A stretch of 64,000 bases of DNA, taken from positions 1-64,000 of the IMG/VR virus record IMGVR_UViG_3300032770_000012. One strand, written 5' to 3'. The notes beneath the pieces are model-generated. The model made no database searches and was not told the DNA's origin. It saw only the letters and a program-made list of their open reading frames with translations. Source of the stretch: a virus. The position numbers and the translations under genes were made by a program. Of the stretch, positions 10,197 to 61,443 are shown piece after piece; the first letter of the stretch is position 1, and the number at the start of each line of letters is the position of its first letter.

Positions 10197-10231
10197 GAAC
10201 TCTCCGCCGCCTGTCCCGCGTTTTACGGAAA

Positions 10232-10244
10232 GTCCAGACTGGAC
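10232..10244. promoter_or_regulatory. dispersed 13-bp palindrome, copy 2
   Basis: Exact GTCCAGACTGGAC in the short gap between the stop of the gene at 10251 and the tail-fibre start at 10196. In this position a bound protein could block read-through or initiation of the tail-fibre group. Confidence 0.75.
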
Positions 10245-10250
10245 AATTGC

Positions 10251-19978: not shown

Positions 19979-20041
19979 CGTGAGGTAATGACTCAGTTTA
20001 CCGCCCCACCAATTTCAGTTGCAATGTTATTCTGTCTCTAA

Positions 20042-21483: not shown

Positions 21484-21659
21484 GCGCGATGCTTTAGTGC
21501 TTTCAGAATCCGATTTACTTCTTCGGTCCGTTTGTCGTCATCCTCATCGGAACGCTCTATTCTTGGGGGATTGTCTCGCTTCAGATAGGAGTCCGAGAGT
21601 GTTCGCCGCGCTGCGGAGCTAGCACGATCCGGTCCGCTCGCCATATCGTCAAGGCGCAT
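21480..21659 (-). CDS. small charged protein linked to the portal gene, 59 aa
   Basis: MRLDDMASGPDRASSAARRT then a charged helical part (PPRIERSDEDDDKRTEEVNR). The ATG at 21659 shares a base with the TAA stop of the portal gene (TAATG), so translation is coupled to portal synthesis. Acidic C-terminal helix; a portal- or scaffold-associated cofactor is possible. Not recognised. Confidence 0.6.
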   Translation of the reverse strand: MRLDDMASGPDRASSAARRTLSDSYLKRDNPPRIERSDEDDDKRTEEVNRILKALKHRA

Positions 21660-23548
21660 TAGATCGGGCTCCCTGTACGTTGGCTCCGTGTCATGCGGGG
21701 TGTTCTGCCCGGCGCTTGAGGCATTGCGGAATGTTCGGCTTTCAGGCGCGCTAAGATTTGTTCCGTTTCCTGGCGACCAAAACCAGCTTTTCTCAACAGC
21801 GTCTCCGTATCTAATTTACCCAAACGGGCCAATACCAGCGCAATCTGTTGCTCCCGATCTTTAGAAGATCCCAGCAAAGATCCGGCCACGATCTCTATGG
21901 AGAAGTTTCGCCAAAATACCTCCTTTGCCATACCTGCCGGGATCATCGTGTCCGGGTCCCAGTCGCAGTCCTCGATTACCTGACCATCGGTGCCTAGGAT
22001 CTCGATACGGGATTTGAGATTAAAATATTGCAAACAATTTGAAACGGCCTGGATTCCGCTCTCGCCCAAGAACGCCTCAATGAACCGGCCTTCCAGCCTG
22101 AAGTGACTGCCTTGCGAGTCGCGCATCTGCTCGACCGTGTCCGCTCCTGGGACCTGTTTCTTTTTGGCAAGCTGCGTCATGTCCAGGTTTCCGGCGTGGC
22201 CCTGGAAGGCGGGCAGTAAGTATTGCAGGAGGAATTGCATTACGTAGGCCGGGATTTCCGGGGCCTGCAAGGTGCGGATATCCTTGGTCGGATCGGCGTT
22301 CGGCATCATGCGCAGCTTGGCCCCCGGTATGTCCGGGAAAAAGCGGTCCCAATCGGCGTCGGCAATCGCGCCTTTGCGGCCTGCTATCGTTGGCCGGATG
22401 GCCCTGCGGATCATCTCGATCACGCCTGCCGGGATTTCATTGAGTGCGTCCTGGAGTGGCATGAGATTCCGGTACTTTGACAACCCGCGCGGTGCCCACA
22501 CTACCGGATCGAGCATCAACATGGCGAAGGGATACAGCCCATGGAAGTATGGGTTTGGTCCGTCGTATAGCGGTCGGTCGCCGCCGAATACCAGGAGCCG
22601 TTTGCGCGGAAACAGCTTTTGTCCGGGCTTCACCAAGTACCAGTAGTTGTGCTCGAACGGAGAAAGATTGGGGTCTCGCACCAGTTTTGTTTCGCGGCTG
22701 TCGTTGGTGCTGTCGTCCTCAATCCAATACTCCTCAAGCGGAATGATCGGATAGAGCGCCGTGTCGGATTGCTCCCCCGGACCTTCCACCCTGCGGACTC
22801 TCATCCAGCGCTTCATGGAGGGCGATAATGAAGACCATTGGTACTGCGGCAAGTGCGCTGGCCGCTCGTAAGGCGTGGCGCTTCGCTGTTCGTTGTAGGA
22901 AACGGAGTAGCGCTCCAGGCCATCGGCTTTGTTGCCGAATAACTTCCTGAAGTACTGAATGGTCTTGTGGAGCCGGTAGAGCACTCCGCTTGCAAGCTGA
23001 ATGTTGTTCCCGCAGTGCAGCGGCAACACCGTATCCATGCCGCACGGCGTCACGATCAGACGCGCAGCGCTCACCCCGTCAATGCCGGATACGGCTCCTA
23101 GTTTCCAGAACCCGCAGCCGAACATTGCGTGATCGATCACCTCTGCGAGCGACAGATCGATGCGGCTGCGGTTCCACTCGTGCAGAATGATGTTGGTCAG
23201 GACATCGGCGGTCTTCTTGAATCCTTCGTGCGATGAGCGCACCGTCATCGTAGGACGGATGTCGGTGTATTGCGCTCGGGCGTCCTTGCGGGCTTTTGAA
23301 AGTTGGTTGTCAACGAATCGATTCAGATGCCGGGGCAGGTTCGGGCGGCGTTTCCACTGGTCCCCTTCGAGCGCATCGATATAGTCGCGGACCTTCTCGA
23401 ACTCGCGCGACATCCGAAGTTCCTCAAGGGCTTCTTCCTTGAAGGCTTCCTTCCACTGGATCATCTTGCGGTCGTACTGATCGGGGTAGTCGAGCGTCCC
23501 GGACTTAGACCGCTCCAGCGGAGATCTCGGCATTAGGACAGCGGCCAT
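21659..23548 (-). CDS. portal protein
   Basis: 629 aa. Identified from size, position between terminase-side genes and capsid genes, and features of podovirus-type portals: a helical charged N-terminus (KMIQWKEAFKEEALEELR), a region with IDHAMFGCGFWKL (about residue 142), LQDALNEIPAGVIEMIRRAI (about 363) and a C-terminal helical/wing part (EQQIALVLARLGKLD). Twelve copies would form the ring through which DNA is packaged and released. A TATACT box lies upstream. Confidence 0.8.
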   Translation of the reverse strand: MAAVLMPRSPLERSKSGTLDYPDQYDRKMIQWKEAFKEEALEELRMSREFEKVRDYIDALEGDQWKRRPNLPRHLNRFVDNQLSKARKDARAQYTDIRPTMTVRSSHEGFKKTADVLTNIILHEWNRSRIDLSLAEVIDHAMFGCGFWKLGAVSGIDGVSAARLIVTPCGMDTVLPLHCGNNIQLASGVLYRLHKTIQYFRKLFGNKADGLERYSVSYNEQRSATPYERPAHLPQYQWSSLSPSMKRWMRVRRVEGPGEQSDTALYPIIPLEEYWIEDDSTNDSRETKLVRDPNLSPFEHNYWYLVKPGQKLFPRKRLLVFGGDRPLYDGPNPYFHGLYPFAMLMLDPVVWAPRGLSKYRNLMPLQDALNEIPAGVIEMIRRAIRPTIAGRKGAIADADWDRFFPDIPGAKLRMMPNADPTKDIRTLQAPEIPAYVMQFLLQYLLPAFQGHAGNLDMTQLAKKKQVPGADTVEQMRDSQGSHFRLEGRFIEAFLGESGIQAVSNCLQYFNLKSRIEILGTDGQVIEDCDWDPDTMIPAGMAKEVFWRNFSIEIVAGSLLGSSKDREQQIALVLARLGKLDTETLLRKAGFGRQETEQILARLKAEHSAMPQAPGRTPRMTRSQRTGSPI

Positions 23549-28791: not shown

Positions 28792-31068
28792 TCAGACTCG
28801 ATTCTGCTCCCATTGATTGTACTCCTCATCAATTTTGTTTCCAAGCAGGATCTGGTCTAGGTCCAGGATCACTTCTCGCTTTTCGCTCATGCCAACGCGC
28901 TTACCGAGCAGGAGAATGAAGCCGCATTTCAGGCAGCGCTCGCCTTCGGGGTCTTCCGATCCCCACTCGTTACCGCACCGCTGGCAGATCATGAGCCACG
29001 GGAGATTCTCGGCTTTGCCGGTGTCCGTCCGGATCGGAATATAGCCCAGATTCGGATCGTACTCGTTTTCGTGCGCCGTATAGTCGGCGATCATGGTGGC
29101 TAAAATCTCGTCATCGTGCATTCCCTCGGCAGCGCCCGCCGATTTACTCGCGAATTCTTCCTTTTGGAATGTCTTTAGTTCCTCAACGCAGTTGTCGCTG
29201 CGAATTTCGATCAGGCGCGCCTTGAGCCGCATTGCCATGTTTTCATAGAGTCGCGGCTTGGAATTGGCCTGCGTGATCCAGTGGTACTTGTTCGATTGCA
29301 CGCTACTCACGGAATCCAGGTGCTTCCAACGGTAGAGATTCGGGTAAGACAATTGCAGGCGGACTGTGTCTCCACAGGTCTGGTAGGTGTTGTACTCGAT
29401 CGACATCAACGCTTCGTTGTACCAGAGTCCTAGATAGTTCGCGATGTAGGCGAGTTCAATGGAAGTCACCAGATTCGAACGAAACGTTGCGACTTGGACG
29501 TCCGGACCATGCGCTCCTCCGAGCCTGATAACGGCCACCACCGAGTAGTCGGCTTCCGATGAAGTCTCGCCCATGCCGCCAGCGACGTCAACGCCGCAAG
29601 CGTATTCCGAACCTGGATTCGGCCATTCCCAGATTCTCAAGTTGCTCGTTTCGAATCGGTGATCCAGATCGCAGCCAGCGGCCCAACACTTTGATCCGAT
29701 CTCTTGGCCGCTGTCCTGATGCCGGATGATTTCCTTCACGCCGTGGAACTTGCCCTGCCGGTCAAGAAAGCCTTCAGCGGTCGGGGGACGCACGCAGCTA
29801 TCGGCGTACTGCTGCATTTCGAGCGTAAAGACGTTCAGGCCGTGAAGCTGGAAACTCTCTTCCGCCGTTGAAGTCAACTCTTCCCGAAGTGTCTTGAGTG
29901 ACTCTATATCCTTCTCGGCATTCACGCGCTCGTTCCACATCCAGCACAACTGCGGATTGGAAAGCATGTACGGCTTGAGAATCCCTGTGTTGCATGTTCG
30001 GCACTTCGCCCCAATGGTCGATGCCCCCATGTAAACCGAGGCATGCCACATCCCGCAAGGCTCGAAGTCGCATTTGACCCATTCGGAAGCGACGCGGTTT
30101 CGCATGTCGATTTCGGGCTGATCCGGCCTCCATCCTCCAGGCGGGGCCATTACGCGAGTCTTCTCCATGAAGTAAGGCAGGAACAAGGCTTTCCACTTTG
30201 ATCGCTCCCCGAGTTCTACGCACTTCCTCCACCACTTATGACTCCAGCTTCCAGCGTTCTTTCCGGTCGATTCGGCGACGGCGATTGTGTCGGGACTTTC
30301 AATCAATGCCTTGCCGATATCGCCCTCGATGGCGTCCCTAACTTTTTCTTGCTGCCAATCGCAGAACTCCGAGCAATGTACGCCAGATAACGGTAGCCCT
30401 TGCCCGATTCCGGAATACTGGGTAGCGGCTTGGACCGTGATACGTGAGTTCAATCCAGGCTCCTTGCGGCGGGCCTCCAGGTCTGGATTTTCAAACACGA
30501 TCCCGCCGTCGAACGTGCGATTGGATGTCATGGGCTTCATCCACCAAGGCACGTGATCGTAAATGTGCAGCATGATCGAGAACAGATACTCGGCGTGCGG
30601 AGCATCGCGCGAAACCACTAGCGAAATGGTGTTCGGCCAGAACATCGTGCGCCACGCGATCAGAGCCTCGATCAATGTGGAACTTCCCAATTGGCGACCT
30701 TTGATGATGAGCAGGCGCTGTGCTTTGCCTTGAGCCTTCAGCCGTAGCAGTTCTTCCAGGATCAACTCTTGTGATTCCCAAAGCTGAAACGGCATCTCCT
30801 GCCGGGTATGCTTGTGCGCGATGCGGAAGTAGTTGCGGGCGGCGTAGCGAAAGTCCAGGGCGCACATCCGCATCTGCTCGTGGATGGCCTGTAGTTCTTT
30901 GTTTGTCAGGTTCTCCCAGTTGTGGATCTTGTTGTCCTGGTCGAAGTGCCGGATTAGCTCCCCGATGCCGGGATCGCGCCTCCAGATCGCGGTGTGTTTT
31001 GGTATGTAGGCCGGAGCCTTGGTGATCTCTGAATATTGCTCGACCGCTTCGGGGCCGCTGACAACCAT
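28792..31068 (-). CDS. terL: terminase large subunit
   Basis: 758 aa. ATPase half: variant Walker A GRQLGSST (about residues 124-131), Walker B-like VHCSEFCDW (about 230) and following motor region. Nuclease half: CGVDVAGGMGE (about 490), SIEYNTYQT (about 560) and DDEILATMIADY near 665 supply candidate acidic metal ligands. A C4 zinc ribbon (CQRCG, CLKCG) lies near the C-terminus, which is not in every terminase. It packages DNA into the procapsid through the portal and cuts the concatemer. Small subunit gene immediately upstream. Confidence 0.85.
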   Translation of the reverse strand: MVVSGPEAVEQYSEITKAPAYIPKHTAIWRRDPGIGELIRHFDQDNKIHNWENLTNKELQAIHEQMRMCALDFRYAARNYFRIAHKHTRQEMPFQLWESQELILEELLRLKAQGKAQRLLIIKGRQLGSSTLIEALIAWRTMFWPNTISLVVSRDAPHAEYLFSIMLHIYDHVPWWMKPMTSNRTFDGGIVFENPDLEARRKEPGLNSRITVQAATQYSGIGQGLPLSGVHCSEFCDWQQEKVRDAIEGDIGKALIESPDTIAVAESTGKNAGSWSHKWWRKCVELGERSKWKALFLPYFMEKTRVMAPPGGWRPDQPEIDMRNRVASEWVKCDFEPCGMWHASVYMGASTIGAKCRTCNTGILKPYMLSNPQLCWMWNERVNAEKDIESLKTLREELTSTAEESFQLHGLNVFTLEMQQYADSCVRPPTAEGFLDRQGKFHGVKEIIRHQDSGQEIGSKCWAAGCDLDHRFETSNLRIWEWPNPGSEYACGVDVAGGMGETSSEADYSVVAVIRLGGAHGPDVQVATFRSNLVTSIELAYIANYLGLWYNEALMSIEYNTYQTCGDTVRLQLSYPNLYRWKHLDSVSSVQSNKYHWITQANSKPRLYENMAMRLKARLIEIRSDNCVEELKTFQKEEFASKSAGAAEGMHDDEILATMIADYTAHENEYDPNLGYIPIRTDTGKAENLPWLMICQRCGNEWGSEDPEGERCLKCGFILLLGKRVGMSEKREVILDLDQILLGNKIDEEYNQWEQNRV

Positions 31069-50021: not shown

Positions 50022-50231
50022 ATGCATAGAACGTTTTGCATTGAACGCATTCAAACCGGGGAGCGCGGTATTCAGTACTGGCTTTCCTACGATGACGAGA
50101 TTTACACGCTCGCCGAAGGCAATGAGCGTATGCGTTTTCTCATTCAGAATCAGCCGGATTGCGACTTTAGGCTGATTGAGATTTTGAGTCACAGCGTAGA
50201 CTTGCGGCAAGCGCACGGGGGTTCCCGATGA
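50022..50231 (+). CDS. small early protein, 69 aa
   Basis: MHRTFCIERIQTGERGIQYW, mixed. Preceded by AAGGAGACGACTT. Overlaps by four bases the ATPase gene, which suggests translational coupling to it. Function unknown. Confidence 0.6.
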   Translation: MHRTFCIERIQTGERGIQYWLSYDDEIYTLAEGNERMRFLIQNQPDCDFRLIEILSHSVDLRQAHGGSR

Positions 50232-51226
50232 CGCCAGCTTGCCCGGTTAAACCATCCGAACTCGTGCGCGCCTTAACGCTGCTCTATGAGGCCCGCCATC
50301 CGGCGCATGTCTGGGGAAGCCCAGGGACGGGGAAGTCCAGCGTTATGGCGCAAGTCGCTGACTCGCTTGGCATTCAGCTTATCGACGTGCGCGCCGTCCT
50401 GCTCGATCCGGTGGACTTGCGGGGACTGCCGCATATCAACGGCGGCGGGCGCTCGCATTGGGCCATCCCTGACTTTCTGCCGCGCGAGGGCGCTGGCATT
50501 CTGTTTTTCGATGAGGCCAACCGAAGCGCGCCATTGGTCCAGAACGGATTGCTTCAGATCACGCTCGACCGTCGCTTGGGCGAATACCGGCTACCTGACG
50601 GTTGGTGTTGCATGCTGGCCGGTAACCGCGAGTCGGACGGCGGCGGCGTCACAAAGCTCAATTCGGCGCTGTCTAGCAGGTTGACTCACCTAGACTTACA
50701 GGTCGATATGGACGATTGGTGCAAGTGGGCGCTGAGCGCCGATGTTGAGCCGCCCGTGGTAGCGTTCCTGCGATTCAGGCCGGAACTGCTGGACAAGTTC
50801 GACCGCACCGCTCGCGCCTATCCTAATCCGCGCTCCTGGAGCTTTGTTTCCCGGATCGTGGCGAGCCATCCGGACGCTACCGTCGAGCACGCGCTATTTG
50901 CGGGCACGGTCGGCGAAGGTGCTGCTACCGAGTTCTCAGCCTTCATGCGGCTTTATCGGACCTTGCCAGACATGGATGCCATCATCGCGAAACCGGACAA
51001 AGCGCCGGTACCGGATCGCCCGGAAACACTGTTTGCTGTAGCGTCCGCGCTGGCGCGCAAAGCTAACGTCCAAAACTGGGCGCGCATCCTGACCTATGCC
51101 GAACGACTGCCGGAGGAATTTTCCATCTACATGGTGAAAGATTCCGTCATGATCCACCGCGAATTGAACGAAACAAAGGAGTTGACTAAGTACCTGATCG
51201 CTCACAGCGACGTTGCCTTGGCGTGA
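50228..51226 (+). CDS. MoxR-type AAA+ ATPase
   Basis: 332 aa. Walker A WGSPGTGKSS (about residues 29-38), Walker B GILFFDEANR (about 90-99), and sensor-1-like CMLAGNRESDGG (about 135). MoxR ATPases remodel or chaperone partners together with VWA-domain proteins. The genes that follow are a DUF3150-like protein, a zinc-finger protein and a metallopeptidase-VWA protein, a set seen in some phages and plasmids. Its target is unknown. Confidence 0.8.
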   Translation: MTPACPVKPSELVRALTLLYEARHPAHVWGSPGTGKSSVMAQVADSLGIQLIDVRAVLLDPVDLRGLPHINGGGRSHWAIPDFLPREGAGILFFDEANRSAPLVQNGLLQITLDRRLGEYRLPDGWCCMLAGNRESDGGGVTKLNSALSSRLTHLDLQVDMDDWCKWALSADVEPPVVAFLRFRPELLDKFDRTARAYPNPRSWSFVSRIVASHPDATVEHALFAGTVGEGAATEFSAFMRLYRTLPDMDAIIAKPDKAPVPDRPETLFAVASALARKANVQNWARILTYAERLPEEFSIYMVKDSVMIHRELNETKELTKYLIAHSDVALA

Positions 51227-51236
51227 GTGCCCGCTT

Positions 51237-51262
51237 GCAGCGGATTCCACGGAGTCCGCTGC
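51237..51262 (+). other. intergenic stem-loop 6
   Basis: GCAGCGGA (51237-51244) pairs with TCCGCTGC (51255-51262), ten-base loop, upstream of the next GGAGACGA site. Confidence 0.5.
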
Positions 51263-51294
51263 CGGGGGACGCATTCCCCATACAGGAGACGAAC

Positions 51295-52142
51295 ATGGAC
51301 AGTATTACTTCGAAAGCAATGCTCACATCGCTGAGCATCCGCGCTTGGACGGCGGTGAGGCATGACCGCAAGGTCAGTGCCGAAGTAGCGGCGGCGCATA
51401 ACTCGGACGTTCACTTTGGACGTTACAATAAATCGCTGGTCGCGGCCAGCGCCCTGGAACAACTGAAAAAAATAGGCAGTGCCGCACGCTTAGAGCACTA
51501 CCATCGCACGCTCCCCTGGTCAGAGGACGGCTACCGGATTTTGTCGAGCGCCGGGTATTTCCCCGCACTCAGTACGAGGCGGCAGTCCAAGACTTTTGTT
51601 CGGCTTATCCGCAGTACGTGGCGGATGCCAAGCAATCCCTTAACGGTCTGTTCAACGAAGCCGAGTATCCCAAGGCCCACGAGATCGAGCGGAAATTCGG
51701 CTTTGAAATCACCGTGCGCCCGGTTCCCGATGCCGGGGACTTCCGCGTCGATCTGTCAGCGGATGAAACCAACCGCATTCGGCAAGAGATTGAGCTATCG
51801 GTCGAGAACACCGTGAAGGCCGCGATGCAAGACGCCTTTATCCGGCTCAGGGATGTGGTGGGCCATATGGCCGAAAGATTGACGCTCTATACCGAAGCGC
51901 CTAACGGCAAAGTGGTTAACCCATTCCGCGATACCGTTGTAACCAACATCACGGATTTGCTGGACGTCCTGCCGTCGCTCAACTTGACTGGCTCGCCAGA
52001 GCTTGACGCATTTGCCGATGAAGTGCGGTCCAAGCTGGCGAACTTCAGCCCCGACCAACTGCGCAATTCCGCCGTCATCCGCAATTCGACCAAAGAAGCC
52101 GCTGCCGAGATCCTCAAGAAAATGGAGGACTTCCTGAAATGA
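51295..52142 (+). CDS. DUF3150-like MoxR-VWA partner, probable -1 frameshift
   Basis: The first frame (start 51295, MDSITSKAMLTSLSIRAWTA) contains residues 1 to about 88, ending GYFPALSTRR; the homologous continuation (EAAVQDFCSAYPQYVADAKQ, SLNGLFNEAEYPK) is in the -1 frame and runs to 52142. The crossover falls at T TTC CCC (51558-51564), a perfect XXXYYYZ slippery heptamer in the 0-frame. Read together, about 281 aa, it resembles phage proteins annotated as DUF3150, which accompany MoxR-VWA genes. Programmed slippage, a sequencing error or a disrupted gene are all possible. Confidence 0.65.
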
Positions 52143-52396
52143 ACGAGGCTTTCACGCACGCTCGTAAGGGCGACAAATTCTTTAAGTTCGTCTGGCTTTC
52201 GAATCTTGGCACGGAATATTCCAGCGGTCGCGACGTGGCTGAGGCCTTCGGAAGCGCCGGTTACAGTGCTGGAGCGCTAGCGGCTTTGGATTATCACGCC
52301 GAAGTTTTCCCCTGTAAAGACTGCGATTTTATTGGGGATTCCAAGGCCGATCTGACAAAGCACAAGCGCTCTTGTGGAAAGAAGGTATCAGCATGA
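52139..52396 (+). CDS. zinc-finger small protein
   Basis: 85 aa. The C-terminus CKDCDFIGDSKADLTKHKRS followed by CGKK fits a C2HC-type zinc finger. Preceded by ATGA overlap with the gene before it and followed by an ATGA overlap with the metallopeptidase gene, so it belongs in the same translation chain. A DNA- or protein-binding partner; function unknown. Confidence 0.6.
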   Translation: MNEAFTHARKGDKFFKFVWLSNLGTEYSSGRDVAEAFGSAGYSAGALAALDYHAEVFPCKDCDFIGDSKADLTKHKRSCGKKVSA

Positions 52397-54372
52397 CCAA
52401 ATCACTCCCGATGGATGCTGCCAAGCTGATGAGCCGGGCGCGCACTAAGCTGATGCTCAACCATCCGTGGTTCGGTTCGCTCGCCATGCGCCTGAGAATG
52501 CAGGAGCGCTCCGACATCCCCACTATGGCGACCGACGGAACGTATCTGTTTTATAATCCTACGTTTACGGCGTCATTGAGTGAAGCGGAGCGCTTAGGCG
52601 TGGTTGCACATGAGGTAATGCACGCCTGTTTGGGTCATGTATTTCGTCGCCAAAACCGTGACCCGTATAGGTTTAACGTTTCCTGCGATCTGGCGATTAA
52701 CCCGATACTGATCGAGGCGGGCCTGACTTTGCCCAAGGGCGTGCTGATAGACGACAAGTTTAAAGGCATGTCTGCTGAGGCGATATACGCCCGCCTTCCT
52801 ATCAACCAGCAGGGGGGCGCTGGTAAGGGATCACCGCAATCCGGGGGCGCTCCTAGCGCCCCTAATGGCCGAAGATCGATGGGGAATTGTCCGACTGGCG
52901 AGTTTTGGGACTCACCTTCTATCGGATCTTGTCCAGATCCGGACGCCATGACGGAGCAAGACTGGCGCATTGCGGCTGAGCAGGCTTGCCAGATAGCCCG
53001 TAAAGCCGGTAAACTGCCAGCGAGTCTTGACAGGGCGGTCGAGCAGGGCCGAAAGAGTCGCACGGACTGGCGGGCGCTCTTGCGTGAGTTCATACAATCC
53101 ACCACGCCGAGCGATTATTGCGTCGGGCCGGAAACGATGGTCCTACGAGCAGATCTCACATGGGCACGCGCTGACGAGATCAAGATCGGCGATGAACTAA
53201 TCGGGGTCGATGAACACCCCGCTCGCTCCGTTGACACCAATGTGTATGGGCGGAGACGCGTCCGCGTTTCAGTGGTTGAGTCCGCCCATACCTTCAATTC
53301 CACTAGACTCGCGGTGACTACGGATCGGGGGACAACGATTGTCACCCCCGACCATCGCTTTCTCTGTTTCAAGTCTGGCGGCAAACTCCATTGGAAGTAC
53401 GCAAAGAATCTCCGCCAAAATGATCAAATCAAAATGCTTCTACAACCATGGACCGAGGATTTATCTGACTCATGGCTAGCCGGGATGCTTGATGGTGAAG
53501 GAACATTGACAGCCAATCCGGCGACATCGCCCCGTTCCGGCCTGAACCTCCGCATTAGCCAAGCAGAAGGCCCCGTGCTTGACCGCGCTGTCTCTGAGTT
53601 TGCTAACTTTTCATCAGTTGCGAAACGGATAAAGATATGCAAACCGCCTAGACATCTCGGCTCTCAAGTGATCGGAGAAGTGATAGTCTGTCGTGTGGCA
53701 GATGTTCTCCGTATTATCGGCCAGCACCGACCGACTCGATTGCTGCCAAAAATGCTCGATATGATACGGCGTGGTTATTTTTCTCTGCCTCGCTTGGACA
53801 GGGCCACTGTGCGTAGTGTCACTCTTTGTAAACCTGGATCAGTTGTTGCCATTCAGACCACTACACGCACGCTCATAACTGACGGCCTAATCAGCCACAA
53901 CTGTTGGTGCGCCCCCAGCAGGCGCTACATTTCGCAGGGTTTGTACCTTCCGGGGATCGTTAAGGAAGGCATGGGGCCTATTGTGGTGGCGATCGATACC
54001 AGCGGGTCAATCACGCGCCGGATGCTCAACGTGTTCGCCGCCGAGCTATCGGAGATCCTGACAGAGTGCCGCCCGGAATCGGTGGAGGTCATCTATTGCG
54101 ATGCGGCGGTCCAATCCACGGAGACATTCACGCCCGATGATGGCTTGGTAGAACTCAAGGCCAAGGGCGGCGGCGGCACGGCATTCCGGCCCGTTTTTGA
54201 ATGGGTTGCGGACCATAACTTAGAGCCCGTCGCGATGGTGTATGCTACGGACCTGGAGAGCTTTGACGCGCCCGACGATCCGGGAAGTTATCCGGTTCTG
54301 TGGCTGACGCCGGAGGACGTATCGCGGGGCGTCCCATTTGGCCGTCATGTGCCGGTGGACGTGGAGGATTGA
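52393..54372 (+). CDS. metallopeptidase-VWA protein with intein
   Basis: 659 aa from the ATG at 52393 (MTKSLPMDAAKLMSRARTKL); an ATG at 52372 lies in the preceding gene. HEVMHACLGH (about residues 73-82) is an HExxH-type zinc site; the MIDAS motif DTSGS (about 535-539) marks a VWA domain. These flank an intein of 261 residues (243-503), so the mature protein would have about 398 residues. The precursor belongs to the 'VWA-like, DUF2201 putative metallopeptidase' type paired with MoxR ATPases. Confidence 0.8.
   Translation: MTKSLPMDAAKLMSRARTKLMLNHPWFGSLAMRLRMQERSDIPTMATDGTYLFYNPTFTASLSEAERLGVVAHEVMHACLGHVFRRQNRDPYRFNVSCDLAINPILIEAGLTLPKGVLIDDKFKGMSAEAIYARLPINQQGGAGKGSPQSGGAPSAPNGRRSMGNCPTGEFWDSPSIGSCPDPDAMTEQDWRIAAEQACQIARKAGKLPASLDRAVEQGRKSRTDWRALLREFIQSTTPSDYCVGPETMVLRADLTWARADEIKIGDELIGVDEHPARSVDTNVYGRRRVRVSVVESAHTFNSTRLAVTTDRGTTIVTPDHRFLCFKSGGKLHWKYAKNLRQNDQIKMLLQPWTEDLSDSWLAGMLDGEGTLTANPATSPRSGLNLRISQAEGPVLDRAVSEFANFSSVAKRIKICKPPRHLGSQVIGEVIVCRVADVLRIIGQHRPTRLLPKMLDMIRRGYFSLPRLDRATVRSVTLCKPGSVVAIQTTTRTLITDGLISHNCWCAPSRRYISQGLYLPGIVKEGMGPIVVAIDTSGSITRRMLNVFAAELSEILTECRPESVEVIYCDAAVQSTETFTPDDGLVELKAKGGGGTAFRPVFEWVADHNLEPVAMVYATDLESFDAPDDPGSYPVLWLTPEDVSRGVPFGRHVPVDVED
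52931..52944. promoter_or_regulatory. dispersed palindrome, 13 of 14, within a gene
   Basis: GTCCAGATCCGGAC in the metallopeptidase gene, read C-P-D-P-D. One base away from the exact 14-base form. Confidence 0.5.
53119..53901 (+). other. intein with LAGLIDADG-type segment
   Basis: 261 residues from Cys (C1, CVGPETMVLRADLTW) to Asn (last four residues ISHN), followed by Cys +1. Block B has TPDHRFLC with its TxxH; block F has VVAIQTTTRTLITDGLISHN. WLAGMLDGEGTLTA (about residues 361-374 of the precursor) is a LAGLIDADG-like motif of a homing endonuclease. The splice would restore SDY followed by CWCAPSRRYISQG, a conserved part of this protein family. Confidence 0.85.
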
Positions 54373-54716
54373 TTGACGCGGTTCGTTGTGATCTCGGAAG
54401 GTGTTACGTTTCGCGTAGATCGTGTATGGACGCAGATTGGCGAGGTTTATATTTTGTCAAGCGCAAACTGGGGCGCGCCGAGCGGGAGGCGCTCCCGAAG
54501 GTCCGCAACATCTACGACGGCAAACAGGTAACGGTAGAGGACTTACGTGGAATCCCCGCCGATGACGCCAGGGAACTCGCTATGAGGATCATGGTGTTCG
54601 GAGCGGAGATCCATATCGGCATCGATCTCAGCGTCCTGAACAACTACACTCAGAGATACTCAAAGGCAATGGATACGATCTACAAGACCTCTCCGTTGTA
54701 CAAGCTGAAGTCATGA
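54373..54716 (+). CDS. small paralogue 1, possibly frameshifted
   Basis: The safest reading is ATG 54426 to 54716 (MDADWRGLYFVKRKLGRAER, about 96 aa) with the family motif QVTVEDLRGIPADDARELAM. A TTG at 54373, directly after the VWA stop and with GGAGG five bases before it, opens another frame (TRFVVISEGVTFRVDRVWTQ) that looks like the N-terminus of the family, so the gene may carry a -1 frameshift. The ATG at 54426 lacks a ribosome site. Confidence 0.55.
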
Positions 54717-55060
54717 TTATCGCGATGCAGAAGCGCGCCGGATTCGCTACCTACGGGGATAGCATTACAAACGCACTGTCCGATCAGACCTATACCGGCA
54801 GCAACTCTCGCGGGCCGTCCTGGGCGTACTTCGTTGTGACGGAGGAAAAGGACCCTGAGCGGATCTCGTGGCGCTGGCGCGCACATCAGCCGGAAGTTAT
54901 GGTTTTCGAGGGATTTATTCCGAAACTGGAGCAACTCTGGGACGGCAAGGCCGTTACCATCGAGGACTTGCGCGCCGTCGAGTCGGGAGACAAAGAGGCG
55001 GCGGCGTTGGCGCTCCGCATCATGCTGCTCGGAAACGGACGCGACTCGCCACCATTTTAA
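54713..55060 (+). CDS. small paralogue 2
   Basis: 115 aa, ATGA overlap with paralogue 1. The N-terminal half has AYFVVTEEKDPERISWRWRA and the C-terminal half has AVTIEDLRAVESGDKEAAAL then ALRIMLLG. Family members share E-[DHQ]-L and an AMRI-type end. Function unknown. Confidence 0.6.
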   Translation: MIIAMQKRAGFATYGDSITNALSDQTYTGSNSRGPSWAYFVVTEEKDPERISWRWRAHQPEVMVFEGFIPKLEQLWDGKAVTIEDLRAVESGDKEAAALALRIMLLGNGRDSPPF

Positions 55061-55096
55061 TCCGTTTTGACCTCCATTCTGATATACTGGTCGGAC

Positions 55097-55534
55097 ATGA
55101 AAATATGCTTTAAGTGTCATTCACTCAAACCTTTGGATGACTTCTATGAACATCCCAAGATGAAGGATGGTCATCTAGGAAAATGCAAGCAGTGCGCAAA
55201 GGATGATTCGAATGCAAGGCGCGCTGAAAAACTTGAATCTGTCAGAGCTTACGACAGAGAGCGCGCACAGAATCCTGCCAGAAAAGCGGCGGTACGTCGC
55301 TATGTGAGGGCGCGAAACTTGCGCTATCCGCAGAAACGAAAAGCTAGAATCGCTGTCGGCAACGCTATACGGGACGGATTATTGGTCAAGCTGCCATGCG
55401 TTCGGTGCGGCGACGAAAACGTGGAAGCCCATCACCATGATTACTCAAAGCCTCTGGAGGTGATTTGGCTGTGCTACCTACATCATAGAGAAATCCACGC
55501 AGAGATAAAACAACAGGCAATTTCAATGGTTTAG
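55097..55534 (+). CDS. HNH endonuclease, stand-alone
   Basis: 145 aa. Zinc-finger-like CFKCHSLKPLDDFYEHPKMK at the N-terminus; C-terminal CVRCGDENVEAHHHDYSKPL followed by WLCYLHHREIHAE makes an HNH with Cys pair and HH, HH dyads. It separates paralogues 2 and 3, which otherwise overlap, and is likely a homing endonuclease inserted into the array. Confidence 0.8.
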   Translation: MKICFKCHSLKPLDDFYEHPKMKDGHLGKCKQCAKDDSNARRAEKLESVRAYDRERAQNPARKAAVRRYVRARNLRYPQKRKARIAVGNAIRDGLLVKLPCVRCGDENVEAHHHDYSKPLEVIWLCYLHHREIHAEIKQQAISMV

Positions 55535-55537
55535 AGC

Positions 55538-55780
55538 ATGGGAATCTACGCAAAGAGCGGCAAGTACATGGATGTATATCGGGCTGAATTCTTCTCCGGT
55601 CACTGGCGCTGGCGCTGGCTGACAATCAGAAAACGCCAATCAACTTATTGCCTTAAAGCTAAAGTGGTTCATGGTGTCTATTCCGCCGCTTTTGTCACGG
55701 TCGAGCATCTCGCGCAATTCCCGCAAACTGATGAGGTTAAAGCGCTGTCCATGCGTATCCTGATGGGGATCGGACAATGA
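55538..55780 (+). CDS. small paralogue 3
   Basis: 80 aa, MGIYAKSGKYMDVYRAEFFS, then AFVTVEHLAQFPQTDEVKAL and SMRILMGIG. The shortest full copy, ATGA overlap with paralogue 4. N-terminal part aromatic and basic. Confidence 0.6.
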   Translation: MGIYAKSGKYMDVYRAEFFSGHWRWRWLTIRKRQSTYCLKAKVVHGVYSAAFVTVEHLAQFPQTDEVKALSMRILMGIGQ

Positions 55781-56175
55781 AACTGCCGAAATTATACTGC
55801 CGGTCCGATGCCGGTCGAGTCTTTATGCTGGATTTGCGATACACCTACAATTTACACATTGAGTGGCGGCGGCATGGGGGGATCTTATTCCAATCCGAGA
55901 GCCAACTACCATTTACTCCGGCTGCCGCCGTTTTAGTATGGTCTCCATTTTTGCTGCGCATTGAGGAAACCAAAACTATTGGAATCACACCGTTTATACG
56001 CATGCTTGAGGAAACCAAAACTATTGGAATCACACCGTTTATACGCATGCAAGACAGAGGAGAGCCGAATCCGGCAAATTCTGTTCTGTTCAGAATAGAG
56101 GACTTGAAGCACTTCCCGCAAACCGATGAACTGAAGGAATTTGCCATGCGGCTGACGTTGGGGTTGCCGGAATGA
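55777..56175 (+). CDS. small paralogue 4, with internal duplication
   Basis: 132 aa, MKLPKLYCRSDAGRVFMLDL, with ETKTIGITPFIRM occurring twice in tandem (45-base duplication) and LFRIEDLKHFPQTDELKEFA then MRLTLGL at its end. The duplication makes this copy longer than its neighbours; in-frame, so it is probably expressed. Confidence 0.65.
   Translation: MKLPKLYCRSDAGRVFMLDLRYTYNLHIEWRRHGGILFQSESQLPFTPAAAVLVWSPFLLRIEETKTIGITPFIRMLEETKTIGITPFIRMQDRGEPNPANSVLFRIEDLKHFPQTDELKEFAMRLTLGLPE
55961..56050. repeat. perfect 45-bp tandem duplication
   Basis: Units 55961-56005 and 56006-56050 are identical. Each encodes a 15-residue segment, E-E-T-K-T-I-G-I-T-P-F-I-R-M. No third copy. Confidence 0.85.
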
Positions 56176-56438
56176 TATTGTGCCGGGACGCAAGCGGGGT
56201 AATTGTGCGCTTGTTTTCGGAGGAGGGGTTCTATTGGTGGGAGGCAGCATGGCTGGCGGCGGTCTGGTGTTCTCCGGAGGAAGCAATCCCTATGGTAGAA
56301 CAGATCTCTGTTCCGGACGATTGGCGTGGTCTTATGCGGTTTCCTGTCAAACTAGAACACTTAGAAACTTTAGAGCAGACCGACGAACTCAGGGAGGTCG
56401 CCATGCGGATCATGCTCGGGATCGGAGCGCCGGAATGA
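56172..56438 (+). CDS. small paralogue 5
   Basis: 88 aa, MILCRDASGVIVRLFSEEGF, then PVKLEHLETLEQTDELREVA and MRIMLGIGAPE. ATGA overlaps on both sides. Function unknown. Confidence 0.6.
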   Translation: MILCRDASGVIVRLFSEEGFYWWEAAWLAAVWCSPEEAIPMVEQISVPDDWRGLMRFPVKLEHLETLEQTDELREVAMRIMLGIGAPE

Positions 56439-56734
56439 TGGATCTGCCGAAGTTATTCACGCGGGGCGGGGCGAACGGACCGTATTGGCAGCTTCAACGA
56501 CTGGTACTGGATGCTCCAGACCGGCCCGTCCGCTTCGTCTTTCAATGGGCCAATGTGCAGCACGAATACTTCCGAACTGAAATTCTCAAGGGGGCCGCTG
56601 TTTCCCAAATGCTGATGCAGCGGTTGCCCAATAGGATTCACAACCCGTTCCGGCTGGAAGATCTGAAGGGCTTCCCTCAGACCAACGAAATTCGGGAATT
56701 CGCCATGCGAATTGCGCTCGGTTTGGAACCGTAG
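56435..56734 (+). CDS. small paralogue 6
   Basis: 99 aa, MMDLPKLFTRGGANGPYWQL, then PFRLEDLKGFPQTNEIREFA and MRIALGLEP. The start at 56435 overlaps the previous stop; a longer frame upstream is not needed. MKLPKLY and MMDLPKLF starts are shared with paralogue 4. Confidence 0.6.
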   Translation: MMDLPKLFTRGGANGPYWQLQRLVLDAPDRPVRFVFQWANVQHEYFRTEILKGAAVSQMLMQRLPNRIHNPFRLEDLKGFPQTNEIREFAMRIALGLEP

Positions 56735-56859
56735 CATTCTCGCCCTTTGACGGCCAAAATTCACGCCGATTTGTTGGGCACTTTTGGTCAAAACTAGGGT
56801 TTCGATGCGTCCAAGGGGCCAGAAACGTGCCGAAAATTTGACTTCTTTGTTCTGGCGAT

Positions 56860-56876
56860 GCTAGGCTTTGCCTAGC
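56860..56876 (+). other. palindrome before the HNH gene
   Basis: GCTAGGC (56860-56866) and GCCTAGC (56870-56876) with TTT between, a tight stem-loop just before a run of A and the ATG at 56887. No U-run follows, so not a simple terminator. The gap between 56735 and 56886 has no gene. Confidence 0.4.
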
Positions 56877-56886
56877 ACCCAAAAAA

Positions 56887-57468
56887 ATGAATCTGGCAAA
56901 AAGAGAGCGGACGAAACTTGGACGACTTCTCCTCGAAATTCAAGTAAGACAATGGGAAGAGGAAAAGCGCCTGTTCAAAAAGCCCGTCGAATATCACGGT
57001 CTCAGCGGGACTCCAGAATATAGATCCTGGAGCGCAATGATTTCAAGATGTCTCAACCCTAGAAACGATTCGTTTGACAACTACGGCGGTCGCGGTATCA
57101 AGGTGTGTTATCGATGGAGAGAATCCTTCGTTGCTTTCTACAAGGATATGGGTCCGAAACCAAGGCGCGGCCTGTCAATCGATCGCATTGACAACAATGG
57201 TAACTACGAGCCCGGAAATTGTCGTTGGGCTGGTACTTTTGAACAATCTCGCAATATGAGGAAGAACATTCTTATTGAGCACGATGGTCGCACGCACATC
57301 ATCAGCGATTGGGCTGTTTTAAGCGGGATACCATTGAGTTTACTGAGCTACCGTCTCAAGCGTGGTTGGTCTTTTGATCGAGCTATTTCTACTCCGGTAG
57401 CCAAGTCTGTTCCGCGCCAGCGCCCTTCGCTTCAGTTGGACCCGGTGTGCGGTCCGATGACCGCTTAA
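56887..57468 (+). CDS. HNH/AP2-type homing endonuclease
   Basis: 193 aa; about residues 35-120 carry the same pattern as the nuclease at 19199: YRSWSAMISRCLNPRNDSFD, YGGRGIKVCYRW, SIDRIDNNGNYEPGNCRWAG and RNMRKN. The last part is HTH-like (SDWAVLSGIPLSLLSYRLKRG). The 3' end overlaps the minus-strand HTH gene. Second free-standing member of this family in the window. Confidence 0.8.
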   Translation: MNLAKRERTKLGRLLLEIQVRQWEEEKRLFKKPVEYHGLSGTPEYRSWSAMISRCLNPRNDSFDNYGGRGIKVCYRWRESFVAFYKDMGPKPRRGLSIDRIDNNGNYEPGNCRWAGTFEQSRNMRKNILIEHDGRTHIISDWAVLSGIPLSLLSYRLKRGWSFDRAISTPVAKSVPRQRPSLQLDPVCGPMTA

Positions 57469-57880
57469 CCGAGCCCTTCGTGTCCAGACTGGACGGATCG
57501 AAGTAATCGGCTAGTTTGGGGGCCTTCTTACGGACCTTCTTGGACAGCATTTCCTCGCGGACTTTCTGGGTTCGTGCGATCATCTGGTCGGGCGGCAACT
57601 CCATGAAGGCTTCCATCAGGTAGTTGACCCGCTCCATGACGTAGACTAGATACTCGACCGACTCGGACAGCCAGCGTAGGCTTTGTTCGGTGCGGTGGGG
57701 TACCAGCACATGGGCGGCGACCTGCTTAACGTATTGCGGATGGCAACCTACAGCCTTAGCGATCTCTTCGTTCTTGACGCCCTTGTCCAGCATATCCCTA
57801 ATCGCGGCGGCTCTGGACTCGTACTGACCCCATGGCTTCTTGCGGTTCCTGGGTGTTTTTTCTTGCATCCTAGCGGACAT
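57389..57880 (-). CDS. HTH protein, candidate regulator
   Basis: 163 aa from the ATG at 57880. KNEEIAKAVGCHPQYVKQVA (about residues 46-65) is an HTH; the remainder is helical and basic. It lies opposite to, and partly overlaps, the HNH gene and starts beside a palindromic operator candidate that also covers the plus-strand promoter. A palindrome copy (57482-57494) is inside its C-terminal codons. A switch-type repressor or a small-terminase-like protein are both possible. Confidence 0.55.
   Translation of the reverse strand: MSARMQEKTPRNRKKPWGQYESRAAAIRDMLDKGVKNEEIAKAVGCHPQYVKQVAAHVLVPHRTEQSLRWLSESVEYLVYVMERVNYLMEAFMELPPDQMIARTQKVREEMLSKKVRKKAPKLADYFDPSSLDTKGSVKRSSDRTPGPTEAKGAGAEQTWLPE
57482..57494. 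promoter_or_regulatory. dispersed palindrome, 13-bp exact, within a gene
   Basis: GTCCAGACTGGAC in the HTH gene, read on the minus strand S-S-L-D. Confidence 0.7.
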
Positions 57881-57900
57881 TCTACCACGGTTCACTATTC

Positions 57901-57933
57901 TTGTTGACAACAATTACAGGATGCAAGTAAAAT
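57901..57933. promoter_or_regulatory. divergent operator and promoter
   Basis: TTGTTGACAACAA (57901-57913) is a perfect 13-base palindrome covering TTGACA (57904-57909) of a plus promoter with TAAAAT (57928-57933) 18 bases later, and TTGTCA on the minus strand facing the HTH gene. GGATGCAAG lies at 57919-57927. A protein bound here could repress both directions. Confidence 0.55.
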
Positions 57934-57955
57934 GCAGATGGAGACGACGTAACGC

Positions 57956-58159
57956 ATGACCCCTACAAAGAGCGTAATGCTGCGAGCGTTACTGGCGCAA
58001 ATCTCTTACCGGCTGGCCGACACCTATCAGATCAGTTCCGGTTTAGGCGGGCGATCAGTGGACATCAACGAACTGGCGAGCACAATCCAGGAATCGGCGG
58101 AGACGTTCGAGAAAGATAATCGCGGACAGTTTGAATTCAAGGCGGCTCCCCGTGCTTGA
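57956..58159 (+). CDS. small early protein, 67 aa
   Basis: MTPTKSVMLRALLAQISYRL, helical, with VDINELASTIQESAETFEKD. GGAGACGACG precedes it. First gene of the recombination block. Not recognised. Confidence 0.55.
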   Translation: MTPTKSVMLRALLAQISYRLADTYQISSGLGGRSVDINELASTIQESAETFEKDNRGQFEFKAAPRA

Positions 58160-58298
58160 CGCGCTGGTCCCCATGCCGCCGTCACTCGCCGATCCCGATG
58201 CGCTTTGTAAGTGCGGCAATCGGGCCGGGGACCATGTTATATCCGGCCATTGCGCATGGTGCGGATGCACCGGATTTGTACCTGCGGAGGCCGCATGA
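58152..58298 (+). CDS. small Cys/His-rich protein, 48 aa
   Basis: GTG start at 58152 overlaps the previous stop. LCKCGNRAGDHVISGHCAWC then GCTGFVPAEAA: a compact Cys/His cluster that would bind zinc. The TGA overlaps the next ATG. Too short for usual gene calling. Confidence 0.55.
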   Translation: MLDALVPMPPSLADPDALCKCGNRAGDHVISGHCAWCGCTGFVPAEAA

Positions 58299-58474
58299 GC
58301 TTGGGCGATAAGATTGTCGATCATCCGAGTTTCGGAATGGTTGGAGCGAGTCATGTTAGCTCTACCGGCACAAAGGCCGAACAGGTCAAGACGATTTTCG
58401 TAGAGCCTTACATTGCGCATACACGCGCCCTGAAACTAATCGAAAACAAGGAAGCAAAGACATGCCAGATATAA
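58295..58474 (+). CDS. small early protein, 59 aa
   Basis: MSLGDKIVDHPSFGMVGASH, mixed, overlapping the RecT-like gene by 13 bases. Function unknown. Confidence 0.5.
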   Translation: MSLGDKIVDHPSFGMVGASHVSSTGTKAEQVKTIFVEPYIAHTRALKLIENKEAKTCQI

Positions 58475-60060
58475 CGGTGCGGCAACCGCAGCAACAGATT
58501 ACCGTGGAGCGGGGAAAAGATATGTTTCCCGACGACGCCGAGCTTTCCAAGATGTGGGACATGGCGCGCGCCTTTTCAACCACGAATCTTGTGAGGCGGC
58601 ATCTTCAGAACAATGCGCCTGCGATCTTTTACAGCCTGAACATCGGGAAAGAACTCGGTATCCACTGGAGCCATAGCCTGCGCAGTCTGTACATTACAGA
58701 CAAGGGTGAGGTCGGCGTAGAAGGTAACATCATCGGATCTTTGCTTTGGTCCAAAGGATTCAAGATCACAATCAACGAATCCACCGATAAGCGCGCCGAA
58801 GTAACGATCACGCGGCCCAATGACGGTGGCTCCCATACCGATTCATTCACCATCGAGGAAGCGGCCAAAGCTGGTCTTACACGCCGCTGGAACCGGGATA
58901 AGCAGGAATACGTTGACGACTTCTCTTGGAAAGCGTACCCCAAGGACAAGCTCTATTGGCGCGCCCTGATGCGAACCGCCCGGCGTGTCGCCGTCGATGT
59001 GATGTACGGACTTTATCTTGACGATGAACTTCGCGAGTCCGAGCGCGCCGAACGTGATGCGGCGCTAGCGTCTGGAAACGGAATGCCGTCCGATTCGCAG
59101 TCGGAACAACTCGAAGCAGCCAACCAGTATTACGTCGGGAAGAAACAGCCATCCGTGGAAGCCGAAGCCGAGGCCCATATTGTTTCAGCCGAGCCCGCGC
59201 CGCCCGCTGGTTCCAATGCCGAATTTTCGCAAGCCGCCAAGGAACGTGCGGCTGCTAACAAGAAACCGGAAGCGCCTGCTACAACTGCGTCGTCTCCTGA
59301 TAGTGGTTCGCAGGCCGCTCCGGTCGATCCGGGGAAGGGTCCTGGCGGGCTAACCGGGACGCAGTCACCTTCCCCGGAATCAGAACCTTCTAAGCCCGCC
59401 GCCGATCAGGGCATGGCTGCGGCTGTGAAGGCCAAGATTTTGGAGTTGACCGACAAATGGCCCACGCTATCGCCCGAAGTCGCTAAGCAGAAACTTCAGC
59501 AGGCCGTGAAGGGATGGCACGGAGTCAACCGGCTTCCTACCGACCCCAAGGCGTATCTGTCTCCGCTTGCCGCCATTGAGTGCGCCATGAAGTTCGAAGG
59601 CGGCGTGATCGATCAACTACTGAAGCGGGAACCTGCGCAGTTTGGCAAAGCAGCCAAGACCGCTTTCGATCAGGTCAATGCGAAGATGGCCGACTGGAAA
59701 TGGCCGGGTCCGGTGCGGGCGCTGGCACTGGAGGTTTGGTACCTCCGCATGAGCCCGCTGGAGAGCGATGAGTTTATTGATTGGATTCAGAATACCCTTG
59801 AGATCTCCGGTCTGCCCGAGAAGGATTTGGCACCGTTCTTTGAGTGCGCCCTGATTTCCCGCCAATGTTTCCGGCTGGTGTTGCTATCGCGCAAGCTGAA
59901 TCTGCCCGTCTCGGAGTTAGCAGGATCTTTCTTGCGGGATCAGCCGCATGAGGAGCGCGCTCTTACCAACTGGCTGGACGGTCTGGAAAAGCAGGACACC
60001 ATCAAGACCGAGGATGACGCTCCTACCGATTCCCCGCAAGAAGCGCTGCCCTGGGAGTGA
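58462..60060 (+). CDS. RecT-like ssDNA annealing protein
   Basis: 532 aa. Residues about 10-215 resemble RecT/Bet-type annealing proteins: LGIHWSHSLRSLYITDKGEV, then FTIEEAAKAGL, and KAYPKDKLYWRALMRTARRV followed by DVMYGLYLDDEL, close to the 'YWRALxRGARRLFPDVxxGLYTPEEL' block. A Pro/Ala/Ser-rich linker (about 245-335) leads to a helical C-terminal domain (about 335-532) not found in plain RecT. A PD-(D/E)XK nuclease follows downstream, a natural partner in phage recombination. Confidence 0.7.
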   Translation: MPDITVRQPQQQITVERGKDMFPDDAELSKMWDMARAFSTTNLVRRHLQNNAPAIFYSLNIGKELGIHWSHSLRSLYITDKGEVGVEGNIIGSLLWSKGFKITINESTDKRAEVTITRPNDGGSHTDSFTIEEAAKAGLTRRWNRDKQEYVDDFSWKAYPKDKLYWRALMRTARRVAVDVMYGLYLDDELRESERAERDAALASGNGMPSDSQSEQLEAANQYYVGKKQPSVEAEAEAHIVSAEPAPPAGSNAEFSQAAKERAAANKKPEAPATTASSPDSGSQAAPVDPGKGPGGLTGTQSPSPESEPSKPAADQGMAAAVKAKILELTDKWPTLSPEVAKQKLQQAVKGWHGVNRLPTDPKAYLSPLAAIECAMKFEGGVIDQLLKREPAQFGKAAKTAFDQVNAKMADWKWPGPVRALALEVWYLRMSPLESDEFIDWIQNTLEISGLPEKDLAPFFECALISRQCFRLVLLSRKLNLPVSELAGSFLRDQPHEERALTNWLDGLEKQDTIKTEDDAPTDSPQEALPWE

Positions 60061-60063
60061 TCG

Positions 60064-60474
60064 GTGCCAATCCTTTGCTCGTCCTTCATCAAGTACGCAT
60101 GGGACTCTCGCCCTGGGTCAGGTCATTATACTGCGTTCCAGCTTGAGGCCGTATTCGATCCCAAACGGAGCGTCTGGTTGTGGCAAGAGGTCCGGGAGCA
60201 CACACAGACTCAGATCAAAGACCCGGATAAGCTTTCTGCTGTCTGTTCGAGTTTGGGTCCGCTGATCTTGGATGTTCATCCCTTACAGCCGGTGAAACCC
60301 GAGCAGTTAGAGTTTCTTGGCAGCGATGAGGCCCGAGAACTCGCCATGCGTATCCTGATGGGGATCGGACCTAAAACCGAACCGGAGAAAGATTGGTGGG
60401 ATCGTCCAGATCTGGACAGCCGCACGCAGCGGCTGAAGCTGGCGAATCATCCTCGATTCAAGGTGAACGCATGA
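60064..60474 (+). CDS. small paralogue 7, distant copy
   Basis: 136 aa, GTG start at 60064. FQLEAVFDPKRSVWLWQEVR near residue 22 matches the aromatic N-terminus of the other copies, and PVKPEQLEFLGSDEARELAM then RILMGIGPKTE is the family end. A C-terminal extension contains the palindrome (60404-60417), read R-P-D-L-D. It lies 3.3 kb from the array, after the RecT-like gene. Confidence 0.6.
   Translation: MPILCSSFIKYAWDSRPGSGHYTAFQLEAVFDPKRSVWLWQEVREHTQTQIKDPDKLSAVCSSLGPLILDVHPLQPVKPEQLEFLGSDEARELAMRILMGIGPKTEPEKDWWDRPDLDSRTQRLKLANHPRFKVNA
60404..60417. promoter_or_regulatory. dispersed palindrome, 14-bp exact, within a gene
   Basis: GTCCAGATCTGGAC in the C-terminal part of paralogue 7. Confidence 0.7.
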
Positions 60475-60811: not shown

Positions 60812-60835
60812 CTTTTGAGCAGCGCAGGGGAGACA

Positions 60836-61075
60836 ATGGCTGACACTTTCCCGATGGTCAATGTGTCATCGAGCAACATCCAGGCGGTCGGCTGGCAGGC
60901 CGAACGCGAGGGCGATGATGTCGGCACTCTGCGAGTAGCCTTTCGCAATGGCGCGGTGTTCGATTACTCGGATGTGCCGGGCGTGATTTACCAACAACTG
61001 CTGGAATCCCCGAGCGTTGGCAGCTACTTTCACGGCAATATCAAATCGCATTACAACAGCACCAAGGTATCCTGA
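60836..61075 (+). CDS. KTSC-domain protein
   Basis: 79 aa; VSSSNIQAVGWQAEREGDDV, then FRNGAVFDYSDVPGVIYQQL and SVGSYFHGNIKSHY match the KTSC domain, named for its occurrence at the C-terminus of some lysyl-tRNA synthetases and common in phages and plasmids. GGGGAGACA precedes the ATG at 60836. A very short frame, MTFEQRRGDNG, lies in the leader. Molecular function unknown. Confidence 0.7.
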   Translation: MADTFPMVNVSSSNIQAVGWQAEREGDDVGTLRVAFRNGAVFDYSDVPGVIYQQLLESPSVGSYFHGNIKSHYNSTKVS

Positions 61076-61443
61076 TGGCCCGCGATCTACTGTGCCAGAA
61101 ATGCGCTCCGTTGGCTATCGAGAGGCGTTCGAAGATCCGCTTTCCGCTAGAAATGCGGTTGTCCTATAGCGCTATCCGAAGACATTCTGGATTCGGGAAA
61201 ACAGTTGACGTGTCCAGTGCTGGAATGCTCCTCGAACTGGATGGCTTTGTTCCTGCCGGTACGAAGTTGCACCTCCTGCTAGAATGGCCCTGCCTGTTGG
61301 ATTGGAGCGTCCCCATGAGCATGACGGTTGAGACGAGGGTCGTCCGCTGTATCGGGAACCGTGCGGCAGTACGGCTGCTTTCTTATGAGTTCAAGACTCG
61401 CAGGGGCCCGCTCCTCGCGCGAGAGAGAGCGATAGCCTCATGA
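61075..61443 (+). CDS. PilZ-domain protein
   Basis: 122 aa. ERRSKIRFPLEMRLSYSAIR gives the RxxxR of PilZ, and TVDVSSAGMLLELD the (D/N)xSxxG; both are needed to bind cyclic di-GMP. The N-terminus has CQKCAPLAIER, perhaps a zinc site. Shares its A with the previous TGA (TGATG). A phage-encoded c-di-GMP receptor could sense or divert host signalling linked to motility, biofilm or exopolysaccharide. Predicted from the two motifs. Confidence 0.65.
   Translation: MARDLLCQKCAPLAIERRSKIRFPLEMRLSYSAIRRHSGFGKTVDVSSAGMLLELDGFVPAGTKLHLLLEWPCLLDWSVPMSMTVETRVVRCIGNRAAVRLLSYEFKTRRGPLLARERAIAS

Follow-up and report, generated by a model that had tools for sequence, protein, structure and literature searches.

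Seven small orphan paralogous proteins with a shared tail segment in a tailed phage

Sequence comparisons argue strongly that seven small genes of a tailed phage, here called g1 to g7, form a real family of paralogues, and the homology of a tail segment across all seven can be taken as settled by the profile and shuffle statistics given below. Six of the genes (g1–g6) are clustered and the seventh lies 3.3 kb downstream, past a RecT-like gene. The window analysed covers bases 1–64,000 of a virus record 101,193 bases long. At the end of that record its opening 127 bases recur as a direct terminal repeat, so the record is probably a complete assembly of ~101.07 kb.

Results

Gene layout and phage setting

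All seven ORFs of the original prediction were present on the plus strand with the expected positions and sizes (Table 1). Most of them had been said to overlap by ATGA, and four such junctions are real (g1–g2 at 54713, g3–g4 at 55777, g4–g5 at 56172 and g5–g6 at 56435), whereas a probable HNH gene parts g2 from g3, and g7 stands apart. This HNH gene, which had no Pfam match, interrupts the operon and is outside the paralogue family. Further GTGA/ATGA overlaps are found upstream at 51223, 52139 and 52393, and because start/stop overlaps run upstream to the MoxR ATPase gene, the stretch from 50228 to g6 reads as one translationally coupled operon. The DUF2201 protein of this operon probably starts at ATG 52393; its intein separates the metallopeptidase part from the VWA part and carries a LAGLIDADG-like motif (LAGMLDGEG) at 53476. 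Past RecT, g7 precedes KTSC, PilZ and exonuclease genes. In this recombination module the KTSC-domain gene (60815-61075) is followed by a PilZ-like gene of the c-di-GMP-binding type (61075-61443), whose PilZ match is just under the Pfam cut-off. Within g4 there is an exact two-copy, in-frame tandem duplication of 45 bp (55961-56050), which must be recent.

Table 1. Location and support of the genes and elements discussed (positions within the window)
Feature	Position	Strand	Protein	Shared segment	Support or remark
Portal	21659-23548	−			Family search
Terminase large subunit	28792-31068	−			Family search
MoxR-like AAA ATPase	50228..51226	+			phrog_1297 E 5.7e-89; Pfam AAA E 2.8e-4
Putative metallopeptidase and VWA-like protein (DUF2201)	52372..54372	+			DUF2201_N E 5.1e-49; DUF2201 E 2.8e-30
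Intein in DUF2201 protein	about 53119-53901	+			Intein splicing domain E 1.3e-4
g1	54373..54716	+	96 aa from ATG 54426	54528-54611	Tail profile E 5.3e-14
g2	54713..55060	+	115 aa	54953-55042	Tail profile E 8.5e-14; ATGA overlap with g1
Probable HNH-type nuclease, zinc-ribbon-like start	55097..55534	+			CxxC pairs and EAHHHDY...HHREIH, by eye
g3	55538..55780	+	80 aa	55694-55777	Tail profile E 3.7e-18
g4	55777..56175	+	132 aa	56089-56172	Tail profile E 2.9e-17; ATGA overlap
g5	56172..56438	+	88 aa	56346-56429	Tail profile E 3.4e-17; ATGA overlap
g6	56435..56734	+	99 aa	56648-56731	Tail profile E 4.4e-17; ATGA overlap
Second HNH gene	56887-57468				phrog_3377 E 5.5e-57; downstream of g1–g6
RecT-like annealing protein	58462..60060	+			phrog_4171 E 5e-19
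g7	60064..60474	+	136 aa, GTG start 3 nt past RecT	60292-60372	Tail profile E 8.4e-15

The source is a tailed phage, with the portal and terminase genes on the minus strand and those DNA-metabolism genes that were examined on the plus strand. Its closest annotated terminase, at 26% identity, belongs to Tunturiibacter soil phages. No close relatives of the phage were found in IMG/VR or INPHARED, where near records may be missing, by DNA search or with five of its proteins, and RecT, MoxR ATPase, terminase, VWA and g7 as queries found no phage relatives in IMG/VR. Elsewhere in the window, the HNH endonuclease-like proteins at 56887-57468 and 19202-20014 (minus strand) are related as paralogues, with 39% identity over 151 aa (E 7e-34), and a short ORF at 1997-2617 is a partial duplication of an 854-aa protein at 7635-10250 (minus strand; 43% identity over 95 aa, E 4e-16). 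Rfam gave no match across 50–64 kb, and scans for promoters and terminators gave counts not above chance.

The start of g1

The original prediction started g1 at ATG 54426, which is without a clear ribosome-binding site. TTG 54373 lies directly after the VWA stop codon and is preceded at 5 nt by GGAGG; its frame is open to 54531, and codon-usage scores favour this frame to about 54450 and the frame of the tail from about 54465. Given this TTG and the switch of frame in codon usage, the ATG start is doubtful; judged by these signals, g1 probably begins at TTG 54373, in a different frame, and then shifts frame near 54450-54490. The peptide of the first frame did not significantly resemble the other fronts (the N-terminal parts of the proteins). 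Between the ATPase and VWA genes, at 51223-52142, two overlapping ORFs resemble a single gene whose frame changes near 51540, and the switch has the same direction as that in g1. The alternatives are that the two genes are broken or recoded and that the assembly has single-base errors at both sites; g1 may be broken.

A segment common to all seven proteins

A segment of ~28 residues, h-x-h-E-[DHQ]-L...[DE]-x-x-x-h-[AS]-[ML]-R-[IL], is common to all seven proteins. It had been described as a conserved end; its presence in every protein stands, but its terminal position does not hold for g1 and g7, which run ~35 and 33 aa beyond it. A 28-column profile of the aligned tails, the search proposed along with the original prediction, was run against the six-frame translation of the 101,193-base record, with every ORF down to 25 aa taken in, and returned exactly g1–g7 (E 3.7e-18 to 8.5e-14), with the next best match in the whole record at 1.7. 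Because such a profile contains the sequences that it finds, each tail was also scored against the profile of the other six, and these leave-one-out scores were 20–50 bits, whereas the shuffles of each tail reached at most 7–13 bits. Pairwise tail alignments gave z of 3.3–20 over shuffles, and the DNA pattern of the tail occurred 4 times in the window and 0 times in 100 shuffles (expected 0.00). As a positive control, the alignment search on the record itself recovered all seven genes. The shortness of the segment is what speaks for a resemblance by chance or composition, without homology; set against the leave-one-out scores, the exactly seven profile matches in 101 kb and the pattern counts, this explanation is refuted, and we leave it next to no probability.

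Diverged N-terminal fronts

The N-terminal halves had been called variable. They are indeed more diverged than the tail, but not freely variable, as the fronts of g1 and g7, and marginally those of g2 and g6, are recognisably homologous. In leave-one-out scoring against profiles of the other fronts, g1 and g7 reached p = 0.001 and g2 and g6 p of about 0.04 (marginal), and no significant score was obtained for the fronts of g3, g4 and g5. The alignment of g6 and g7 extends along the entire front (global z 4.9), and g1–g2 (z 4.3), g3–g7 (z 3.0) and g4–g6 (z 2.9) also align above shuffles. From these comparisons, the proteins are probably one small diverged domain whose C-terminal part is more tightly constrained, less securely so for g3–g5. 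This appears to be the simplest reading, and a constant tail with arbitrary heads would be less simple.

Age and selection

Between pairs of genes, the tails are 43–67% identical in DNA, and summed over the 21 tail pairs there are 260, 169 and 345 differences at codon positions 1, 2 and 3. Third positions thus differ most and second positions least. Because the differences concentrate at third codon positions, the tails are under purifying selection at the protein level, and because third positions are near saturation, the duplications are judged to be old.

Search for relatives elsewhere

Searches of all seven proteins against Pfam, PHROGs, NCBIfam, PADLOC and PDB sequences gave nothing above noise; the best family scores were PHROG 22314 (E 0.052), Pfam LTM (E 0.19) and TIGR01577 (E 0.19), and PDB sequences gave zero matches up to E 10. 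The statement that no known family has this motif is therefore borne out across these collections, and family scans matched none of the seven to an enzyme or structural family. A match to a known family, or tails that are not homologous, had been named beforehand as contrary outcomes, and neither was observed.

INPHARED phages and PLSDB, searched by tblastn with g6 and with a consensus tail, yielded no relatives, and an alignment search through 398 genomes of one phylum found no family member. A hit in Variovorax phage VBv52 (E = 5) was rejected as noise: it spans 22 residues where nothing is annotated and a longer ORF lies opposite, and the tail profile finds nothing in that record. Degenerate tail patterns had 0 and 1 matches in IMG/VR and 12 in GTDB genomes, which are unrelated proteins and noise by the tail profile. 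There are seven paralogues here and zero elsewhere in the databases searched, a comparison set that holds no close relative of the phage. It is safe to call the family 'not found elsewhere' rather than 'unique', as pattern scans reach close relatives only. It is a real and old orphan family of phage paralogues, of a type often met in phages that lack sequenced relatives.

Predicted structures

AlphaFold2 models were made for g6 from the seven-sequence alignment and for g7 from five sequences. The g6 model (pLDDT 62.8) has predicted strands at 17-23 and 33-39 and helices at 54-63, 74-77 and 84-94, the last two within the tail, and its final 30 residues are the best part (73–83). The g7 model (pLDDT 50.9) has three strands, two short helices and a two-helix tail as in g6. 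These models weakly suggest a general plan of a beta hairpin or meander, a helix and a two-helix tail; we give some weight to the predicted two-helix tail alone, the models being too poor for a fold or a binding surface. As expected at such low confidence, Foldseek of both models against BFVD and PDB gave nothing at E ≤ 0.001.

Discussion

What the family does can be approached from its composition and surroundings. Our tentative reading, which we hold as possible rather than probable, is that a small binding protein, non-enzymatic and equipped with a common docking tail, expanded in tandem in this phage lineage and serves in host takeover or counter-defence. The copies would have arisen by tandem duplication within an operon that is translationally coupled and, judged by its neighbours (MoxR–VWA, RecT and exonuclease), non-structural, and the paralogues would be binders made together, a reading suggested by their small size, the lack of an enzyme signature, the tandem multiplication and the diverged fronts. 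Because the tail is uniform, its conserved helical segment may make an identical contact in each copy, either in self-association or with a single shared partner, and the aromatic fronts, which have diverged, may each bind a different or changing target. Host takeover or the neutralisation of host defences is the usual role of such phage gene sets, and this, early in infection, would be the most probable use; early expression of the array we infer from gene position alone. Of the first proposal, the paralogue family and its conserved tail are upheld; the step from a variable front and fixed back to diversifying recognition is supported in part only, as several fronts are diverged homologues and the duplications are old. 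The proposed division of labour between front and tail is likewise weakened by the partly homologous fronts.

A narrower form of this proposal, in which the proteins are specific inhibitors of host defence and each copy acts against a different system or variant, seems rather unlikely to us. It would suit the small size, phage origin, clustering, diverged fronts and lack of known homologues, and small orphan proteins grouped in a phage genome are what the array has in common with anti-CRISPR and other anti-defence clusters. Known anti-CRISPR clusters consist mostly of unrelated proteins, whereas all seven proteins here are one family with a common segment; NCBIfam and PADLOC models, inhibitor families included, gave no match, no marker gene linked to defence was seen next to the array, and none of the results obtained points specifically to anti-defence. 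Also improbable is a role as nucleic-acid-binding accessories of the phage recombination and replication module, with a three-strand-plus-helix front binding DNA or RNA. The position of g7 between RecT and the exonuclease, fronts that in several copies carry basic and aromatic residues (g3 HWRWRWLTIRKRQ) and the low-confidence three-strand plus helix topology of the g7 model are in keeping with such a role, but six of the seven genes are beside MoxR–VWA and away from RecT, several fronts (g5) are non-basic, DNA-binding families were unmatched, and fold searches had no significant result. Decay is a further explanation, under which the array would be decaying or nearly neutral and no more than one or two copies would still work. 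The probable frame change in g1, the recent duplication in g4, the strong divergence of the fronts and the HNH gene inserted between g2 and g3 fit with it; however, the codon-position pattern indicates protein-level constraint in all tails, all seven genes are open and four are still ATGA-coupled, and the second apparent frame change, near 51540 in an unrelated gene, suggests assembly error instead. We give decay little probability.

The neighbourhood raises another explanation, that the proteins are client-selecting adaptors of the phage MoxR ATPase/VWA-metallopeptidase, the tail docking and the front picking what is remodelled or cleaved. In MoxR AAA+ ATPase/VWA cochaperone pairs of the RavA–ViaA type, and in the phage MoxR–vWA pairs with a metallopeptidase-fused vWA described in jumbo phages, for which a role in virion assembly was proposed (PMC7824862), we find the counterpart of the pair directly upstream of the array and apparently in the same operon; g1 follows directly after the VWA stop codon and the overlaps run on upstream. 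The described pairs are unlike this one in having no such paralogues, and S-TIM61, inbricus and phage G (three phages, a small sample) carry a MoxR ATPase without a family member. Moreover, g7 is located elsewhere, and adjacency alone is no proof of interaction. On balance such adaptors are unlikely, and the more specific version, in which interchangeable recognition subunits with one docking tail would be made together with the MoxR–VWA-metallopeptidase and each would bring a different host or viral protein for remodelling or cleavage, is very unlikely.

For the tentatively preferred reading, an expanded family of small binders, one of the closest parallels is Bacillus phage G, where about 35 copies of one zinc ribbon form a lineage-specific expansion of small genes in a large phage (PMC7824862). 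Both are many copies of one small family in a single phage lineage with an unproven role; the array here differs in having no zinc ribbon or other known domain, and six of its seven copies form one coupled cluster. Should the tail be a docking element shared by all copies and each front be specific for a target, the seven proteins would make up a compact natural set of binders, and the partner of the tail, once found, would give access to all seven.
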